64,000 bases of DNA from Kiloniellales bacterium (GTDB lineage Bacteria; Pseudomonadota; Alphaproteobacteria; Kiloniellales; JAKSBE01): assembly GCA_030066685.1 (NCBI GenBank), contig JASJBF010000025.1:1-64000 (forward strand), read 5' to 3'. This document shows positions 1,607-34,214 of this stretch, piece by piece. How positions within the stretch are numbered: position 1 is the first letter of the stretch; each line of letters opens with the position of its first letter. Below the pieces are notes generated by a model. That model made no database searches. It worked only from the letters and a program-made list of their open reading frames with translations, and was not told the origin of the DNA. A program made the position numbers and the translations under genes.

Positions 1607-1738
1607 GGTGTCACCCCCACCCCAACCTTCCCCCATCAAGGGGGGAGAAAGTGGCGGCGGCGGTCCGTAAAAGCCCTCCCCCTAGATGGGGCGCGTCCGC
1701 GCGGCGCTGCGCGCGGGTTGGGTGGGGGTGATGACACC
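1607..1738. repeat. Pyrimidine/purine-rich inverted repeat, long form (copy 1)
   Basis: The outer arms GGTGTCACCCCCACCCCAAC (from 1607) and GGGTTGGGTGGGGGTGATGA (from 1715) are inverted copies. Inside each arm is a smaller palindrome built on CCCCCAT/ATGGGG. The organisation and inner sequence (AAGCCCTCCCCCT) match the copy near 7017-7130, so this is a family of about 130 bp. An extra GC module, GGCGCGTCCGCGCGGCGCTG, sits in the right arm. The spacer from 1421 to 1606 holds nothing I can identify apart from the presumed promoter of the minus-strand gene. Confidence 0.75.
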
Positions 1739-7016: not shown

Positions 7017-7130
7017 GCACCCCACCCCCACCCCTACCCTCCCCCATCAAGGGGGAGGGAGAACGTCACGGCCGCCGACCACTGAAGCCCTCCCCCTGGA
7101 TGGGGGAGGGTTGGGAGGGGGTGGCTGTCC
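7017..7130. repeat. Pyrimidine/purine-rich inverted repeat, long form (copy 2)
   Basis: The left arm CACCCCACCCCCACCCC and right arm GGGTTGGGAGGGGGTGGC are inverted. Each contains a smaller palindrome, CCCTCCCCCAT...GGGGGAGGG and CCCTCCCCCTGGATGGGGGA. It shares the arrangement and the inner AAGCCCTCCCCCT with the copy at 1607-1738 but lacks that copy's extra GC module. It fills the space between the convergent kdsA and azlD genes, where it could also act as a bidirectional terminator. Confidence 0.75.
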
Positions 7131-13542: not shown

Positions 13543-14709
13543 TCAGAGCTTGGCCAGGTGCGGCTCGAGGGCGGCCAGGCTGTCCAGGGTGTGGGCCGGC
13601 GCGAAGAGGTCGACGTGCGGCAGGGCCGCCGCCATGCCCTGGGCGACCGGCTCGTAGCCCTGCCAGCCGATCATCGGGTTGAGCCAGATGACGCGCCGGG
13701 CGCGGCGCTTGAGGCGCGCCATCTCGGCGGCCAGAACCTCAGGCGGGCCGGTGTCGTAGCCGTCGCTGAGGATCATCACCACCGCGCGCCCGTGCAGCAG
13801 CTGCTTGGCGTGGTTGTCGTTGAAGCTGCGCAGGCTCTCGCCGAGCCGGGTGCCGCCGCCCCAGCCGGCCGAGAGGATATTCATCCGGTCGACCGCCTTC
13901 TCCAAGTCGCGCTCGCGCAGCACGGCGCTGATGTGCACCAGGCGGGTGTGGATGACGAAGGCCTCGGCCCGGGCCAGGGTCTCGACCAGGCCGCGGATGA
14001 AGCGGATGAAGAAGCTGCTGTAGAGACTCATCGAGCCGCTGGCGTCGAGCATCATCACCAGCTTGACCGGCCGCGGATGGCGGCGGCGGTAGGCCAAGTC
14101 CAGGGGCAGGCCGCCGTGGCGCAGGCTGCGGTGGATGGTGTTGCGCAGGTCGACCCGACGGCCGCGGCGCCGGACCCGCTCGCGCCGCGACAGGCGCCAG
14201 CGCAGGCGCCGGGCGAGGCGCTCGGCCAGGGCGTAGACCGCCTGGAGATCCTCGGCCGTCTCCAGGTGGCGGAAGTCGGTGCCCGCCAGGCGCTCGGCCG
14301 CGCTGGCGCCGCCCAAGGTCTCCTCGACGCCCGCGCCCTCGCCGCCGGAGCCCAGGGGCGCCGGCGAGGGCACCTCGCCTTCCCCGCCCGCGCGCGGCAA
14401 GGAGCCGGAGACCCGCAGGACGGTGCGTTCGCTGTCGTAGAACCAGAAGGAGTCGAAGAGGTCGTCGAAGCGTTCCCAGTCGGTGGTCGAGGCGCAGAAG
14501 ATCGCCCGTAGTCCGCGGCGCAGCTCTTCCCGGTCGAGCAGGTCGAAGTCGCCGGCGAAGGTCAGCGCGTCGAGGCTTTCCTCGATGCCGACCGGAAAGC
14601 CGTTGTCCCGGGCCCGGCGGGCGAAGGCCAGCAGCTTGCGGTGGATCCGCCGGCCGTCCGGCTCCCCGTCGTCCCGGAGGCCGTGGAGGCCCGAGGTGTC
14701 CGGGCTCAT
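13543..14709 (-). CDS. coxE: VWA-domain protein CoxE
   Basis: A 388-residue protein of the CoxE-like VWA family. After an N-terminal region containing FARRARDNGFPVGIEESLDA and a variable linker, the VWA domain carries the MIDAS motif MLDASGSMS near residue 205, a conserved threonine region (GGTRLGESLRSF) and ILSDGYDTGPP. CoxE acts with the AAA+ ATPase CoxD in building the Cu-S-Mo centre of CO dehydrogenase. I chose the ATG at 14709 because it overlaps the coxD stop as ATGA; a frame reaching 14784 would lie inside coxD. Thirteen bases separate it from coxF. Confidence 0.87.
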   Translation of the reverse strand: MSPDTSGLHGLRDDGEPDGRRIHRKLLAFARRARDNGFPVGIEESLDALTFAGDFDLLDREELRRGLRAIFCASTTDWERFDDLFDSFWFYDSERTVLRVSGSLPRAGGEGEVPSPAPLGSGGEGAGVEETLGGASAAERLAGTDFRHLETAEDLQAVYALAERLARRLRWRLSRRERVRRRGRRVDLRNTIHRSLRHGGLPLDLAYRRRHPRPVKLVMMLDASGSMSLYSSFFIRFIRGLVETLARAEAFVIHTRLVHISAVLRERDLEKAVDRMNILSAGWGGGTRLGESLRSFNDNHAKQLLHGRAVVMILSDGYDTGPPEVLAAEMARLKRRARRVIWLNPMIGWQGYEPVAQGMAAALPHVDLFAPAHTLDSLAALEPHLAKL

Positions 14710-15590
14710 AGCGCCTTGGCGGCCAGGCGGTCGACCACCTCGGGGGTGATCCGGCCGCGGTCGCTGCGGGTCTTCAGCAGGCACATGAGGGTCTGGCGCA
14801 TCTCCTCAAGGTCCTCGTCGATGCGCCGGGCGCCGAGGCCGGTCAGCGCCCGCGCCCAGTCCAGGGTCTCGGCGATGCCCGGCTTCTTGTCCAGGTCCTC
14901 CCGACGCAGGGCCTGGACGAAGCGTACGATCTGGCCGGCCAGGACCCCTTCGATCCCCGGCACCCGGGCGTCGACGATGGCCAGCTCCTTGGCCTCGCTG
15001 GGATAGTCGAGCCAGTGATAGAGGCAGCGCCGGCGCAGGGCGTCCGAGAGTTCCCGGGTCGAGTTCGAGGTCAGGACCACCAAGGGGACGCTGGTCGCCG
15101 CGATGGTGCCGAGCTCTGGGATGCTGATCTGGAAGTCGGAGAGCACCTCCAGCAGGTAGGCCTCGAACTCCTCGTCGGCCCGGTCGATCTCGTCGATCAG
15201 CAGCACCGGCGGCGTGGGCCGGGAGATGGCATCGAGCAGCGGCCGCTTGAGCAGGAACTTCTCCTGGAAGACGTGCTCCTCCTTCTGGTCGGCGGTGAGC
15301 TGCTCGCCCTCCCAGACCTTGATGGCCAGAAGCTGGCGCTGGTAGTTCCACTCGTAGACCGCGGCGTTGGCGTCGAGGCCCTCGTAGCACTGCAGGCGGA
15401 TCAGCTCGGTGTCCAGCGCCTGGGCCAGCGCCTTGGCGACGTCTGTCTTGCCGACCCCGGCCTCGCCCTCGATCAGCAGCGGCCGCTGCAGCCGCTGCAT
15501 CAGGGCCAGCGCCATGGCCAACTCGGGATCGGCGACGTAGCCGGTCCCGCCGAGCTTGTCCTTCAGGTCACGCCAGTTCACGCTTTTCAC
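14706..15590 (-). CDS. coxD: MoxR-type AAA+ ATPase CoxD
   Basis: A 294-residue AAA+ ATPase of the MoxR class. Walker A is GEAGVGKTDVAKALA near residue 40, Walker B is VLLIDEIDRADEEFEA near 130, sensor 1 is VVLTSNSTRELSDA, and the arginine-rich RRRCLYHWLDYP follows. CoxD is the membrane-associated chaperone that, with CoxE, introduces copper and sulfur at the molybdenum site of apo-CO dehydrogenase. The GTG start overlaps the stop of the DUF559 gene (GTGA); a second in-frame GTG four codons later is an alternative. In known cox clusters coxD directly follows coxL, but here a DUF559 gene and repeats intervene. Confidence 0.88.
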   Translation of the reverse strand: MKSVNWRDLKDKLGGTGYVADPELAMALALMQRLQRPLLIEGEAGVGKTDVAKALAQALDTELIRLQCYEGLDANAAVYEWNYQRQLLAIKVWEGEQLTADQKEEHVFQEKFLLKRPLLDAISRPTPPVLLIDEIDRADEEFEAYLLEVLSDFQISIPELGTIAATSVPLVVLTSNSTRELSDALRRRCLYHWLDYPSEAKELAIVDARVPGIEGVLAGQIVRFVQALRREDLDKKPGIAETLDWARALTGLGARRIDEDLEEMRQTLMCLLKTRSDRGRITPEVVDRLAAKAL

Positions 15591-15985
15591 TGCAAGGCCT
15601 CGGTGTCCCCAATCTCTCCCTCCCCCCTTGTGGGGGAGGGTTGGGGTGGGGGGTGGGAGGTGAGCTCGGCCTCGATCGAAAGGACCACGCCTTCGAAATT
15701 TCCGAGCACCTCAGAGTTCCAGAAACGGATGACCCGAAATCCATCTTCTTGGATGCGTCGAGTTCGCGCTGTTTCCCTAGCCGAGCCAAGATCATGCTGA
15801 CCGCCGTCCACTTCGATGACCAGCTTTGCTTCATGGCTGGCGAAGTCCACGACGTAGGGGCCGATTGAGACCTGCCGCCGAAACCGGATGCCAGCGATCT
15901 GCCGTCGACGCAGATGCGACCAGAGGCGCATCTCTGCGTCAGTCGGATTCTTGCGTAGAGATTTGGCCCGTTCGCTCACATGCAT
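15587..15985 (-). CDS. DUF559 endonuclease-like protein with repeat-derived C-terminus
   Basis: A 132-residue protein of the DUF559 group, distantly related to Vsr/PD-(D/E)XK nucleases. It starts with the typical RAKSLRKNPTDAEMRLW, continues GIRFRRQVSIGPYVVDF, then has the catalytic-like LVIEVDGGQHD and ends its core at GFRVIRFWNSEVL. The last ~20 residues (PPPQPSPTRGEGE) are translated from an inverted-repeat arm. A matching arm lies just upstream of the gene, so it is bracketed by inverted copies. Family function is unproven. It sits in the cox operon between coxL and coxD, where no cox function is known for it, and its stop overlaps coxD's start. Confidence 0.85.
   Translation of the reverse strand: MHVSERAKSLRKNPTDAEMRLWSHLRRRQIAGIRFRRQVSIGPYVVDFASHEAKLVIEVDGGQHDLGSARETARTRRIQEDGFRVIRFWNSEVLGNFEGVVLSIEAELTSHPPPQPSPTRGEGEIGDTEALQ
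15610..15664. repeat. Inverted-repeat arm inside the 3' end of the DUF559 gene
   Basis: CTCCCTCCCCCCTTGTGGGG, then GAGGGTTGGGGTGGGGGG. Read in reverse complement it matches the arm at 16015-16057 with only a few differences. It resembles the right half of the long-form repeats at 1607-1738 and 7017-7130. It lies in frame in the DUF559 gene and encodes that protein's proline-rich tail. Confidence 0.8.
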
Positions 15986-16014
15986 CCCTGTCGGAGAGAC
16001 ATGAGACTAGGTCT

Positions 16015-16057
16015 TACCCCCCTCCCCACCCCTCCCCCACAAGGGGGGAGGGAGCTC
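16015..16057. repeat. Inverted-repeat arm between coxL and the DUF559 gene
   Basis: CCCCCCTCCCCACCCCTCCC followed by CCACAAGGGGGGAGGGAGC. It is the inverted partner of the arm at 15610-15664; the two bracket the DUF559 gene about 0.4 kb apart. It lies between the coxL stop (16078) and the DUF559 start (15985), so the cox mRNA would contain both arms and could fold into a long stem. Confidence 0.8.
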
Positions 16058-16077
16058 GTCGCGATGCTCTGAAGCAT

Positions 16078-18486
16078 CTACTTGGCCAGCCCCGCCGCTT
16101 CGATGGTCTGCCAGACCCGCCAGGGGGTGTGCGGCATGGGGGTGTGGGTGACGCCGTGCTGGGCGAAGGCGTCGACCACGGCGTTGGTGAAGGCCGGGAC
16201 GCCGCCAACGTTGGGCGACTCGCCGACGCCCTTGGCGCCGATCGGGTGATGCGGCGAGGGCGTCACCGTGTGGTCGGTCTCCCAGAAGGGCGTCTCGACC
16301 GAAGTCGGGACGAAGTAGTCCTGGAAGCTGGCGCCGAGCACGTTGCCGGTCTCGTCGAAGACGATCTCCTGGCCCATGGCGATGGCGAAGGCCTCGGCCA
16401 GACCGCCGTGGACCTGGCCCTCGATGACCATCGGGTTGATCCGGGTGCCGCAGTCGTCGAGGGCGTAGAAGCGGCGCACCTTGACCTCGCCGGTCTGGCG
16501 GTCGATGTCGACGACGCAGATGTAGGCGCCGAAGGGATAGGTGAAGTTCGGCGGGTCGTAGTAGCTGGTCGTCTCCAGCCCCGGCTCCAGGCCCTCCGGC
16601 AGGTTGGTCGAGTAGGCGGCCATGCAGACGTCCTTCATGGTCGAGAAGCGCTCCGGCAGGCCCTTGACCTTGAAGCGGTCGACCTCCCATTCCAGGTCGT
16701 CCTCGCCGACCTCGAGCAGGTGGGCGGCGATCTTCTGCGCCTTGGCCCTGATCTTGCGCGCCGCGACCGCGCAGGCCGCGCCGGCGACGGGGGTCGAGCG
16801 CGAGCCGTAGGTGCCCAGGCCGTAGGGCGCGGTGTCGGTGTCGCCCTCCTCGACCGTGATTGCGTCCGAGGGCAGGCCGATCTCGGTGGCGACGATCTGG
16901 GCGAAGGTGGTCTCATGGCCCTGGCCCTGGCTCTTGGTGCCCAAGCGGACGATGGCCGAGCCGGTCGGATGGACCCGGATCTCGCAGGAATCGAACATGC
17001 CGAGGCCGACGATGTCGCAGTTGCGGGTCGGCCCGGCGCCGACGATCTCGGTGAAGGTCGAGATGCCGATGCCCATGAGCTCGCCCCGGGCCGCCTTCTC
17101 CTGCTGCTCGCGGCGCAGGCCGTCGTAGTCGACCGCTTCCAGGGCCTTCTTCAGGGCCGTCGGGTAGTCGCCGGAGTCGTACTCCCAGCCGAGGCAGGAG
17201 TCGTAGGGGAACTGCTCGGGCTGGACGAAGTTGCGCAGGCGGATCTCGGCCTTGTCGACCCCGATCTTCTGGGCCAGGACGTCGACCAGGCGCTCGATCA
17301 GGTAGGCCGCCTCGGTGACCCGGAAGGAGCAGCGGTAAGCCACCCCGCCCGGCGCCTTGTTGGTGTAGACCCCGTCCACCTCGACGTGCCCGGCGGCGAT
17401 GTCGTAGCTGCCGGTGACGATGTTGAAGAAGCCGGCCGGCCACTTCATCGGCTGGGCGTGGGTGTTGAAGGCGCCGTGGTCGGCCAGGACCTTGGCGCGG
17501 ATGGCGGTGATCTTGCCGTTCTCGTCGGCCGCCAGCTCGCCGGTCATGTGGTAGTCGCGGGCGAAGGCCGTGGTCGAGAGGTTGTCCATGCGGCTCTCGA
17601 TCCACTTGACCGGCAGGCCGGTCACGATCGAGGCGGCCGCGGCGCAGACGTAGCCGGGATAGGCGCCGACCTTGTTGCCGAAGCCGCCGCCGACGTCCGG
17701 CGAGACGATGCGGATGTTGTTCTCGGACAGCCCGGTGATCAGCGAGACCACGGTGCGGATGACGTGCGGCGCCTGGAAGGTGCCGTAGACCGTGAGCACG
17801 CCGTTGATCGAGTCCATCGAGGCGACGCAGCCGCAGGTTTCCATCGGGCAGGGATGGTTGCGCGGATAGGCGATGTCCTCCTTGATGGTCACAGCGGCCG
17901 ACGCGAAGGCGGCATCGGTGGCCGCCGCGTCGCCGACCTCCCAGTGGAAGATGTGGTTCGGATGCCGTCGATGGCCCTGGCCGACGTCGTCCTTCCCCGC
18001 GACATCGTCGCGCAGGATCGGGGCGTCGTCGTCCAGCGCCTTGCGCGGGTCGACCAGAACCGGCAGCTCCTCGTACTCGACCTCGACCGCCTGTACGCCG
18101 TCGGCGACGGCATAGCGGTCGGCGCCGACCACGAAGGCGACCTCCTGGTTCTGGAAGTGCACCTTCTTGTCGGCCAGGACCGCGGCCACGTCGCCGGCCA
18201 GGGTCGGCATCCAGTGGAGGCCCAGGGGCTCCAGGTCCTTGGCCGTGATCACCGCGGCGACGCCGGGCACGGCCAGGGCCGCCTCGGTGTTGATTGCCTT
18301 GATCTTGGCGTGCGCGTAGGGGCTGCGCACGAAGTCGCCGTAGACCATGCCGGGCAGCTTGATGTCGTCGACGTAGTTGCCCTTGCCGCGGATGAAGCGG
18401 GCGTCTTCCTTGCGCTTGCGGGCGGAGCCGATGCCGCCGAGGGTCGCCTCGCGCTCCTCGAGGGTCATTTCCTTGACGTCGTTCAT
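16078..18486 (-). CDS. coxL: Aerobic carbon monoxide dehydrogenase large (molybdenum) subunit, form I
   Basis: An 802-residue Mo-binding subunit that oxidises CO with water to CO2 at a Cu-S-Mo centre. The active-site loop is AYRCSFR at residues 383-389, with Cys386 as copper ligand. This is the form I signature; form II proteins have AYRGAGR. Glu756 in GVGESPNVGG matches the conserved catalytic glutamate. Other family blocks are KRKEDARFIRGKGNYVDDI and DVGGGFGNKVG. The ATG overlaps the coxS stop by one base (TAATG). A frame extending to 19062 runs through coxS out of register and was rejected. Length fits the ~800-residue norm. Confidence 0.96.
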   Translation of the reverse strand: MNDVKEMTLEEREATLGGIGSARKRKEDARFIRGKGNYVDDIKLPGMVYGDFVRSPYAHAKIKAINTEAALAVPGVAAVITAKDLEPLGLHWMPTLAGDVAAVLADKKVHFQNQEVAFVVGADRYAVADGVQAVEVEYEELPVLVDPRKALDDDAPILRDDVAGKDDVGQGHRRHPNHIFHWEVGDAAATDAAFASAAVTIKEDIAYPRNHPCPMETCGCVASMDSINGVLTVYGTFQAPHVIRTVVSLITGLSENNIRIVSPDVGGGFGNKVGAYPGYVCAAAASIVTGLPVKWIESRMDNLSTTAFARDYHMTGELAADENGKITAIRAKVLADHGAFNTHAQPMKWPAGFFNIVTGSYDIAAGHVEVDGVYTNKAPGGVAYRCSFRVTEAAYLIERLVDVLAQKIGVDKAEIRLRNFVQPEQFPYDSCLGWEYDSGDYPTALKKALEAVDYDGLRREQQEKAARGELMGIGISTFTEIVGAGPTRNCDIVGLGMFDSCEIRVHPTGSAIVRLGTKSQGQGHETTFAQIVATEIGLPSDAITVEEGDTDTAPYGLGTYGSRSTPVAGAACAVAARKIRAKAQKIAAHLLEVGEDDLEWEVDRFKVKGLPERFSTMKDVCMAAYSTNLPEGLEPGLETTSYYDPPNFTYPFGAYICVVDIDRQTGEVKVRRFYALDDCGTRINPMVIEGQVHGGLAEAFAIAMGQEIVFDETGNVLGASFQDYFVPTSVETPFWETDHTVTPSPHHPIGAKGVGESPNVGGVPAFTNAVVDAFAQHGVTHTPMPHTPWRVWQTIEAAGLAK

Positions 18487-18980
18487 TATTCGGCGGCCTC
18501 CCTGCCGGCGTTGATCTTGTCGGCGGCGTAGCGCACCGCCTTGACGATGTTCTGGTAGCCGGTACAGCGGCAGAGGTTGCCGGAGAGGCCCCAGCGGATC
18601 TCCTCGTCGGTCGGGTTGGGATTCTCCTGCAGCAGGCGGTGCGCCCGGACCAGCATGCCCGGCGTGCAGTAGCCGCACTGCAGGCCGTGCTCCTGCATGA
18701 AGCCTTCCTGCAGGGCCGAAAGGGTCCCGTCGGCTTCGGCCATGCCCTCGACCGTGGTGATCTGCCCGCCCTCGGCCTGGACCGCGAAGACCGTGCAGGA
18801 CTTCACCGACTTGCCGTCGAGGTCGACGGTGCAGGCGCCGCAGTGCGAGGTCTCGCAGCCGATGTGCGGGCCGGTGAGGCCCACCTTCTCGCGCAGGAAG
18901 TGGATCAGCAGGGTGCGCGGCTCGACCAGCTCCTCGACCGCCGCGCCGTTGATGGTCATCTTGACCGGAATCTTGCTCAT
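18486..18980 (-). CDS. coxS: Carbon monoxide dehydrogenase small (iron-sulfur) subunit
   Basis: A 164-residue protein with two [2Fe-2S] clusters that carry electrons from the Mo site to FAD. The plant-ferredoxin-type cluster uses Cys42, Cys47, Cys50 and Cys62 ([12 protein letters not shown]...SC). The second uses Cys102, Cys105, Cys137 and Cys139 ([21 protein letters not shown]). Spacing and length are those of CoxS and other xanthine dehydrogenase-family small subunits. It starts 20 bases after coxM and overlaps coxL by one base, so the MSL subunits should be made together. Confidence 0.95.
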
Positions 18981-19000
18981 GTTCTTCTGTCTCCCCGCAC

Positions 19001-19867
19001 TCAGGCGCTTGCCCGCTCGCGCGCCCGCGCGACGGCGCGCTGGACCATGACACCGGCGGCATGGCGCTTGAAGTCGGCCGGGCCGCGCAGGTCCTCGACC
19101 GGATCGGTGGCCTCCCGGGCCAGGCGGACGGCCTCGGCGACGGCGGTTGCGTCGAGGCTGCTGCCGACCAGAGCCTGGGCCGCCGCCTCGGCGAGGATCG
19201 GGGTCTGGCCGAGGTTGGTGAGCGCGATCGCCGCCTGGCTGCAGGTCCCGCCGTCCAGGCTCAGGACCACCGCGGCCGCGGCCGTGGCGTAGTCGCCGAC
19301 CTTGCGCTTCAGCTTTTCGTAGGCCTGGCCCTGACCCTCGGGCGGCCGCGGGATGCGGACCGCGGTCAGGATCTCGTCCTCGCCCAGGGCGGTGAAGTAG
19401 GCGCCCTCGTAGAAGTCGCGGGCCGGGATCTCGCGCGCGCCGCTGGCGTTGCGGACCAGATAGGTCGCACCCAGGCACTGCATCACCGCCGGCAGGTCGT
19501 TGCCCGGATCGCCGTTGGCGACATTGCCGCCCAGGGTGCCACAGTAGCGCACCTGGGGATCGGCGATCAGGAGCGCGGTCTCCCGCAGGATCGGGCAGAC
19601 GGCCTGAAGCAGCTCGGAGCCGATGATCTCGTGCTGCGTGGTCATGGCGCCGATCTCGAGGTTGCCGTCGGCCTCGCGGATGCCCCGCAACTCGGATAGG
19701 CTGCCGAGGTCGATGAGGTGGGCCGGCGCCGCCAGGCGCAGCTTCATCATGGGCACCAGGCTGTGGCCGCCGGCGATCACCCGGCCGTCCTCGCCGTGCT
19801 GGGCGAGAAGCGCCAGGGCTTCATCGACCGAGCCCGGCCGATGGTAGTCGAAGGGTCCTGGAATCAC
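19001..19867 (-). CDS. coxM: Carbon monoxide dehydrogenase medium (FAD-binding) subunit
   Basis: A 288-residue flavoprotein subunit. The two FAD-binding motifs are present as [15 protein letters not shown] near residue 31 and [17 protein letters not shown] near 108. It takes electrons from CoxS and passes them to quinone or the respiratory chain. The start is GTG with AGGAG about 14 bases upstream. It is the first of the contiguous M-S-L genes, the order found in Oligotropha-type cox operons. CoxC is upstream but separated by a 351-bp spacer containing a repeat element. Confidence 0.95.
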
Positions 19868-34072: not shown

Positions 34073-34214
34073 GCCCCCCTCACCCTCCCACAGCGCTCAC
34101 GCGCTGCGGGTCCCTCTCCCTCCAGGGGAGAGGGACTTTTGGCCGCGCACCCATTTCCCTCTCCCGCGGGGAGAGGGAGGGGCCCGACGCGAAGCGTTGG
34201 GAGGGTGAGGGGGC
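34073..34214. repeat. Inverted repeat with nested stems between oxoprolinase and amidohydrolase genes
   Basis: The outer arms GCCCCCCTCACCCTCCCA and TGGGAGGGTGAGGGGGC are inverted. Inside are CAGCGCTCACGCGCTG, then TCCCTCTCCCTCCAGGGGAG and TTCCCTCTCCCGCGGGGAGA. The plan resembles the long-form repeats near 1.6 and 7.0 kb but with a different sequence, so it is a separate family of similar build. It occupies most of the 240-bp spacer. Confidence 0.75.

Follow-up and report, generated by a model that had tools for sequence, protein, structure and literature searches.

Between the genes coxL and coxD of a Kiloniellales bacterium lies a short gene whose product carries a DUF559 domain, enclosed by two inverted repeat arms (Table 1). 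Here the window is the whole 64,000-nucleotide stretch of DNA that we analysed (contig JASJBF010000025.1, positions 1 to 64,000). The 132-residue protein scores 124.4 bits with the Pfam profile PF04480, whose cut-off is 20.6, and aligns to positions 3-108 of the 109 in the profile; its only other Pfam match, MTES_1575, falls below the cut-off. An earlier note on this DNA had placed the gene between coxL and coxD, and that placement holds: the coxL name is backed by a 921-bit match of the last 500 residues of its open reading frame to the NCBIfam model CO_dehy_Mo_lg (CO dehydrogenase large subunit), and coxD is named by position only, its best NCBIfam match, MadB_ATPase, reaching 285 bits and remaining below that model's cut-off. 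The stop codon of the DUF559 gene and the start codon of coxD overlap.

Table 1. Features of the cox-junction unit, its neighbours and related repeats in the window
Feature	Position	Strand	Basis and remarks
DUF559 gene, 132 aa	15985-15587	minus	ORF list and PF04480 match
DUF559 domain of the cox-unit gene	15662-15979	minus	domain coordinates from profile match
Left arm	15616-15654	+	hairpin 15618-15640, then purine-rich tail toward gene; codes the protein's C-terminal tail
Right arm	16016-16054	-	hairpin 16030-16052; tail 16016-16029 toward gene
coxD (downstream neighbour), AAA ATPase	14706-15590	minus	start 15590; named by position
ORF containing coxL (upstream neighbour)	16078-19062	minus	stop at 16078; true coxL start inside ORF, unrefined
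Dispersed dimer, cox-unit repeat type, tails outward	7037-7110		sequence; blastn matches 7021-7062, 7025-7070
Degenerate dimer, cox-unit repeat type	1610-1692		sequence read by eye; tails outward
Hairpin pair, second REP subtype (CCCTCTCCC), unlike cox-unit subtype	34112-34177		sequence

The cox-junction unit and its protein

The inverted arms described earlier around the DUF559 gene are present, with a well-paired core of 39 nt that is 95% complementary and separated by 361 nt. The inverted alignment of the flanks scored 33, and the maximum among 500 dinucleotide shuffles was 14, which rules out chance as the origin of the arms. Each arm consists of a CCCTCCCCC..GGGGGAGGG-type hairpin followed by a purine-rich tail that faces the gene. 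The left arm is also translated, as had been noticed: the last ~22 residues of the protein are read through it, and the structure model is less confident there (block means 63-71). On inspection of the sequence, GTAG is absent from both arms on either strand, and neither arm has the CGTC tag, the stem starting AT and the CCA tail by which CGTC REPs are defined; an Rfam search of positions 15000-16700 gave no match above the gathering score. The arms are single units of a dispersed repeat: in this genome blastn gives 99 matches, counting those of the query to itself, and the exact hairpin pattern has 133 hits per strand. The tails of the dimers at 1.6 and 7.0 kb point outward, whereas those of the unit arms point inward to the gene, in line with the swapped order that had been proposed.

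The structure model of the protein (pLDDT 82.7) found its best PDB match with Foldseek in 3HRL (NGO0050, 38% identity), a solved DUF559 structure whose title says only that it is a putative endonuclease-like protein. The second match was 3R3P, the catalytic domain of I-Bth0305I (Foldseek E 1.4e-5), which was also found by sequence profile (E 3.7e-4), and Vsr, 1VSR, matched more weakly (Foldseek E 0.019). Residues E18, E58, D60 and H64 are invariant in 40 aligned DUF559 proteins and D47 is kept in at least 90% of them; the catalytic residues are presumably among these conserved acidic positions. As far as the model can tell, the protein meets the description of a PD-(D/E)XK, Vsr/homing-endonuclease-like fold, from which its nuclease activity is inferred. 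Like a free-standing homing endonuclease, it has a homing-nuclease fold, and DUF559 units are present or absent at one site in close relatives, as seen at carB (see below) and not at the window's own site. I-Bth0305I itself is a mobile-intron protein, whereas the DUF559 gene is free-standing and REP-bracketed and has no proven recognition site. Separately, Foldseek matched several mitoribosomal proteins of Toxoplasma gondii to the structure model (E from 8e-4), which points to a related domain in them, and one DUF559 copy from another genome (L033, 1345-1686) has a tandem expansion around the conserved GGQH (GGQHSGGQHSGGQH) and is possibly an inactivated nuclease.

Repeats that accompany DUF559 and GIY-YIG genes

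DUF559 was found in 22 of 50 genomes from the order and in 99 of 290 from the class. The loci retrieved for our first, alphaproteobacterial sample contained 139 DUF559 domains scoring more than 100 bits, of which we kept 120 in standalone genes (ORF of at most 260 aa, at least 150 nt on both sides); the sample omits 15 class and 2 order matches of at least 100 bits, whose loci were not retrieved. Aligning the 250 nt on one side of the domain locally with the 250 nt on the other, and taking 20 as the threshold for the best score, we observed flank repeats at 84/120 genes (inverted 69, direct 39, with 15 of the 84 having direct-order repeats only) and, at a score of at least 30, at 62/120. No flank repeat reached score 20 at the remaining 36/120. 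Among neighbouring genes of the same loci, which we predicted in 76 loci with a crude caller of our own making, 1/420 reached the threshold, and neither short neighbours with both gaps of at least 40 nt (0/55) nor ParE toxin genes of the same class (0/28, from the 30 best-scoring loci, with approximate domain ends) had such repeats.

For a second sample we turned to named genomes and, of 162 relatives of the cox-unit protein, took the best 80. We scanned 79 loci and could use 62, of which 4 also occur in the first sample. In this second sample, 48/62 genes were flanked, or 45/58 once the overlaps are removed, so that the proposal that DUF559 genes in general bear arms is borne out in both samples. 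The loci are not phylogenetically independent; pairs above 90% DNA identity numbered none in the first sample and three in the second. A phylum sample of 27 new best-scoring loci contained 11 DUF559 genes outside the class, 6 of them flanked and 10 with the DUF559-type hairpin on at least one side. Some second-sample matches fall in metagenome bins named Chloroflexi, Planctomycetes and Dadabacteria, for which binning errors are possible.

The type of hairpin goes with the nuclease: pyrimidine/purine hairpins accompany DUF559 genes, and CGTC-type REPs accompany many GIY-YIG genes. Solo GIY-YIG genes had been intended as a control (70 top loci among the matches listed, 69 domains, 64 used). Hairpin D, with a stem of at least 8 bp and a pyrimidine 5' strand, was present on both sides of 58/120 DUF559 genes, 0/64 GIY-YIG genes among the matches listed and 0/420 controls, and on at least one side of 96/120, 0/64 (again among the matches listed) and 23/420, respectively. 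Held-out profiles of the DUF559 arms gave 48/120 on both sides, as against 0/64 of the listed GIY-YIG matches and 0/420 controls. The purine tail of the nearest hairpin on each DUF559 side points toward the gene in 94 cases, away from it in 15, both ways in 12 and is lacking in 33. A generic REP hot-spot for small genes is rejected in view of the absence of D hairpins from these 64 GIY-YIG genes and of the null counts for short neighbours and ParE given above.

Flanking repeats do occur at 30/64 of the GIY-YIG genes among the matches listed, and are of kinds other than the DUF559 arms. A [GT]TCA[TC]-headed hairpin lies on both sides of 19/64 of them, 1/120 DUF559 genes and 4/420 controls. Judged by eye, many of the repeats at GIY-YIG genes agree with the description of CGTC REPs, as does GTCATTCCCGCGAAGGCGGGAATCCAG in L243, and L215, L217 and L248 are further examples with CGTC-like repeats (loci L201-L270); a profile of the GIY-YIG arms was too weak, with 2/64 held-out genes among the matches listed and 1/420 controls positive on both sides at T=10. 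In the available part of the 2013 REP survey (PMC3733652), CGTC REPs, with their CGTC tag, stem starting AT and CCA tail, are palindromic, mostly dimers, common in Alphaproteobacteria and apparently without a dedicated transposase, and an enzyme is tied to the GTAG type only. The DUF559 arms differ from CGTC REPs in hairpin type, whereas repeats that fit CGTC REPs flank solo GIY-YIG genes. The product of the solo GIY-YIG gene is a candidate enzyme for the CGTC REPs reported to lack one.

Nuclease and repeat are also coupled across genomes. When we counted the exact hairpin pattern in the 290 genomes of the class, taking E<1e-25 as a strong DUF559 match, at least four hairpins occurred in 51/75 genomes with a strong match vs 11/215 others, and genomes with weak matches only (2/24) were similar to DUF559-free ones (9/191). 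Genome size is rejected as the cause of this link, the size-adjusted odds ratio being 29, with p<0.001 in each of four genome-size strata. ParE genes gave an odds ratio of 4.4 without size correction, and Y1 transposases showed no link to hairpin number (at least four hairpins in 12/60 vs 50/230 genomes, odds ratio 0.9). There are exceptions: the exact pattern has no hit in 14/75 strong-DUF559 genomes, and 6 genomes without a strong DUF559 match hold at least 10 hairpins.

Within genomes we observe that the arms follow the nuclease copy. Among 41 genes in 19 genomes with at least two arm-bearing copies, a gene's own two flanks were more alike than its flank and another copy's in 30 cases, less alike in 9 and tied in 2. 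Protein identity correlated with arm similarity (rho 0.68, 25 pairs), and did so below 80% identity (rho 0.53, 22 pairs) and below 65% (rho 0.44, p 0.05, 20 pairs); near-identical DUF559 pairs in this comparison may be mere duplicates. At 45-62% protein identity, arms were shared at 0.19 within a genome (n=16) and 0.13 between genomes (n=2704), and because sharing is about equally rare in the two settings, the arms follow the copy and not the genome. The second DUF559 gene of the window's genome (L009) has a different repeat from that of the cox unit.

Units at the cox junction, at carB and at other gene starts

The coxL-coxD junction is empty in 22/26 cox loci, where only 64-223 nt separate the coxL stop from the coxD motif (1 of the 26 was unscorable). 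The cox unit is present in the window and in its sister genome G001, with coxL-coxD distances of 535 and 538 nt, and in G025 an independent DUF559 gene lies at the junction in opposite orientation, between full dimers, with a distance of 872 nt. Two independent units thus occupy a junction that is empty in more distant relatives. The claim that related cox operons have no such gene is correct for most of them and fails for G001, which has the unit, and for G025, which has a DUF559 gene of its own. No target duplication was found at the window's own cox site, and no close empty cox site was found either, the single same-genus genome in which the locus was detected sharing the unit; the contrast between filled and empty close relatives that the earlier note had called for comes instead from carB.

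At carB, three same-genus pairs of filled and empty genomes (G044/G042, G001/G000 and G015/G016) display insertion of a whole unit with a target duplication of 42-45 bp. Between G044 and G042 the net insert of 529 bp consists of a 484-bp element and 45 bp that repeat the carB start without a mismatch; the duplication is 41/43 bp identical in G001 compared with G000, the window's genome, and 41/42 bp identical in G015 compared with G016. No REP occurs in the empty carB sites whose sequence we inspected. At L100 a unit lies at a YggS-family gene, of which 46 bp are duplicated, 43 of them identical. Two further cases have decayed and show shorter copies of the target gene: a fourth one at carB (L332, from the second sample, the best 80 of 162) and one at a GatB gene (L137). 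A GIY-YIG unit with CGTC-type arms lies in a NuoE-type gene (L234, among the matches listed), where 34 bp are duplicated, 30 of them identical. By eye, the duplication starts within ~3 bases of the start codon in 7/7 of these cases (three at carB, L100, L332, L137 and L234), and a Shine-Dalgarno-like run precedes the rebuilt start in 5 of the seven. Selection for an intact gene would account for only part of this position at the start codon.

Clear copies of a target gene, of 42-46 bp, were seen at only 4/120 loci (L012, L017, L018 and L100), and duplications below ~13 bp are invisible to the scan. The gene carB was hit in 4 genomes and the other targets differ; there are no cleavage data. A masked direct-repeat scan at score 25 was positive for 11/120 DUF559 genes vs 2/420 controls, and 7 of the 11 reflect repeat homology. 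A mechanical scan for duplicated gene starts (21/120 and 4/62 DUF559 loci, 11/64 GIY-YIG loci among the matches listed and 1/420 controls) was swamped by REPs, so we claim only the cases identified by eye.

In Azospirillum no empty site was found, the gene occupying one place in all 7 matching replicons. In A. argentinense MTCC4035 (L415, about 200-1456), a match to an annotated IS110 transposase adjoins a shortened REP dimer upstream of DUF559, and A. brasilense loci have the full dimer where MTCC4035 has the shortened one. Next to the intact unit at the YggS-family gene of L100, the minus strand carries the remains of a truncated DUF559 gene (about 156-503) with a similar repeat beside it, as if two units had landed.

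A probable mobile unit: a putative nuclease with its own repeats

We think it probable that the cox unit is a small REP-linked, homing-nuclease-like mobile element in which a DUF559 gene lies between two cognate REP hairpins with tails inward, cutting by the protein being inferred. This agrees with the small mobile unit envisaged in the earlier note, supported by whole-unit insertion in the filled and empty pairs at carB. The reading draws on what can be seen at the loci: the pairing of nuclease family with hairpin, arms that follow the copy, dispersed hairpins, entry at carB and the duplicated target of the YggS-family gene. As a mechanism, the nuclease would recognise the REP hairpin or its tail and nick or break DNA, after which repair would copy into the target either the unit or just REPs. 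Where the target is a gene start, the 42-46 bp duplicated in this way would restore the gene that had been interrupted. REPs scattered singly or as dimers would be the non-autonomous products of the process, comparable to the REPs of RAYTs. Recognition, cutting and repair-copying by DUF559 remain inferences, no cutting of the arms having been shown.

The pairing of RAYT and REP is a known precedent, with REPs dispersed as singlets and dimers and with repeat-specific gene-REP pairs (PMC3733652, available in part). Like the REPtron of that survey, the cox unit has one gene bracketed by REP copies and the same REP dispersed as singlets and dimers. Unlike a REPtron, it encodes a putative PD-(D/E)XK-type nuclease in place of a Y1 HUH transposase, the DUF559 hairpins have no GTAG tag, and there is no genome-level link to Y1 genes. 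The earlier analogy with RAYT transposases is sound as a description of how the unit may work and not of the protein, which has no Y1 domain and is not a RAYT. Y1 genes are few or absent in each alphaproteobacterial genome, according to the part of PMC6006769 at hand.

Alternatively, DUF559 may be a Vsr-like repair or hairpin-processing nuclease of the host, its arms being binding or control sites and not the ends of an element, which we regard as unlikely. The main argument for a host role is VsrA (CCNA_02930) of Caulobacter crescentus, which like the cox-unit protein has a DUF559 domain, is PD-(D/E)XK and Vsr-like, and acts on DNA in vivo, being genetically needed for a DNA-damage response in a methyltransferase mutant (PMC12907096, in the part available). 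Unlike the cox-unit protein, VsrA has been investigated in the context of DNA repair: it has a functional link to a solitary cytosine methyltransferase, and the authors propose for it very short patch (mismatch) repair, not mobility; the available part of that paper does not mention repeats for VsrA, and 'palindrom' is absent from its main text. These data support the action of DUF559 on DNA, and yet they slightly lower our confidence in the mobile-unit reading. The one retained place in 7 Azospirillum replicons and the invariant acidic residues are also consistent with a host role. However, DUF559 matches occur in only 99/290 genomes, new positions have empty same-genus relatives, and a genome may hold several divergent copies with different arms.

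Homologous recombination between REPs, with the nuclease as cargo moved via dispersed homology, would account for the several genes that lie between long direct-order dimers (L009, L081 and L104), but it seems improbable to us: the unit entered carB sites that have no REP, with a 42-45 bp duplication, and a nuclease-specific repeat type would be unexplained. We find it very doubtful that small solo genes simply end between REPs, without functional link, in REP-rich gaps that tolerate insertions. REPs are indeed mostly intergenic (PMC3733652, same partial source), and the IS110 match in Azospirillum lies beside such a repeat, but passive hitchhiking is at odds with the null counts for short neighbours, ParE and D hairpins at the listed GIY-YIG matches, with the distinct REP type of each nuclease family and with arms that track the nuclease copy, not the genome. 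Mobilisation of the REPs in trans by a Y1 transposase, with DUF559 incidental, has only the partly available RAYT-REP precedent (PMC3733652) behind it and is rejected as scarcely credible, given the lack of a link between Y1 presence and hairpin number, the single weak and partial Y1 match in the window's genome (E 7.3e-5) and arms without GTAG.

Returning to the REP-linked mobile element, we are evenly divided on whether it exemplifies a general class of selfish units that have no transposase. In each, a solo nuclease (from a superfamily that includes homing endonucleases) would be bracketed by a REP family of its own: pyrimidine/purine hairpins in the case of DUF559, CGTC REPs in that of GIY-YIG. 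Such nucleases would be the missing mobilisers of those REP families that have no known enzyme, and the units would insert near gene starts, where 34-46 bp counted from the start codon would be copied and the host gene thereby restored. Among the titles and abstract starts that our literature searches reached, none links DUF559 or GIY-YIG to REPs, a scope that leaves out most subscription journals and the whole of bioRxiv; in the part of PMC9465073 available, a REP transposase and a GIY-YIG gene appear in one table, unlinked.

Few small repeats are commoner in bacterial genomes than REPs, and DUF559 and GIY-YIG proteins offer testable enzyme candidates for two further REP types. The mobile element proposed here would give a possible role to a domain of unknown function and explain the repeat-encoded tails of such proteins, and it hints at how DNA may be inserted into gene starts without destruction of the gene. 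Our findings suggest that DUF559-like nucleases spread repeats of their own and may even have given rise to them.
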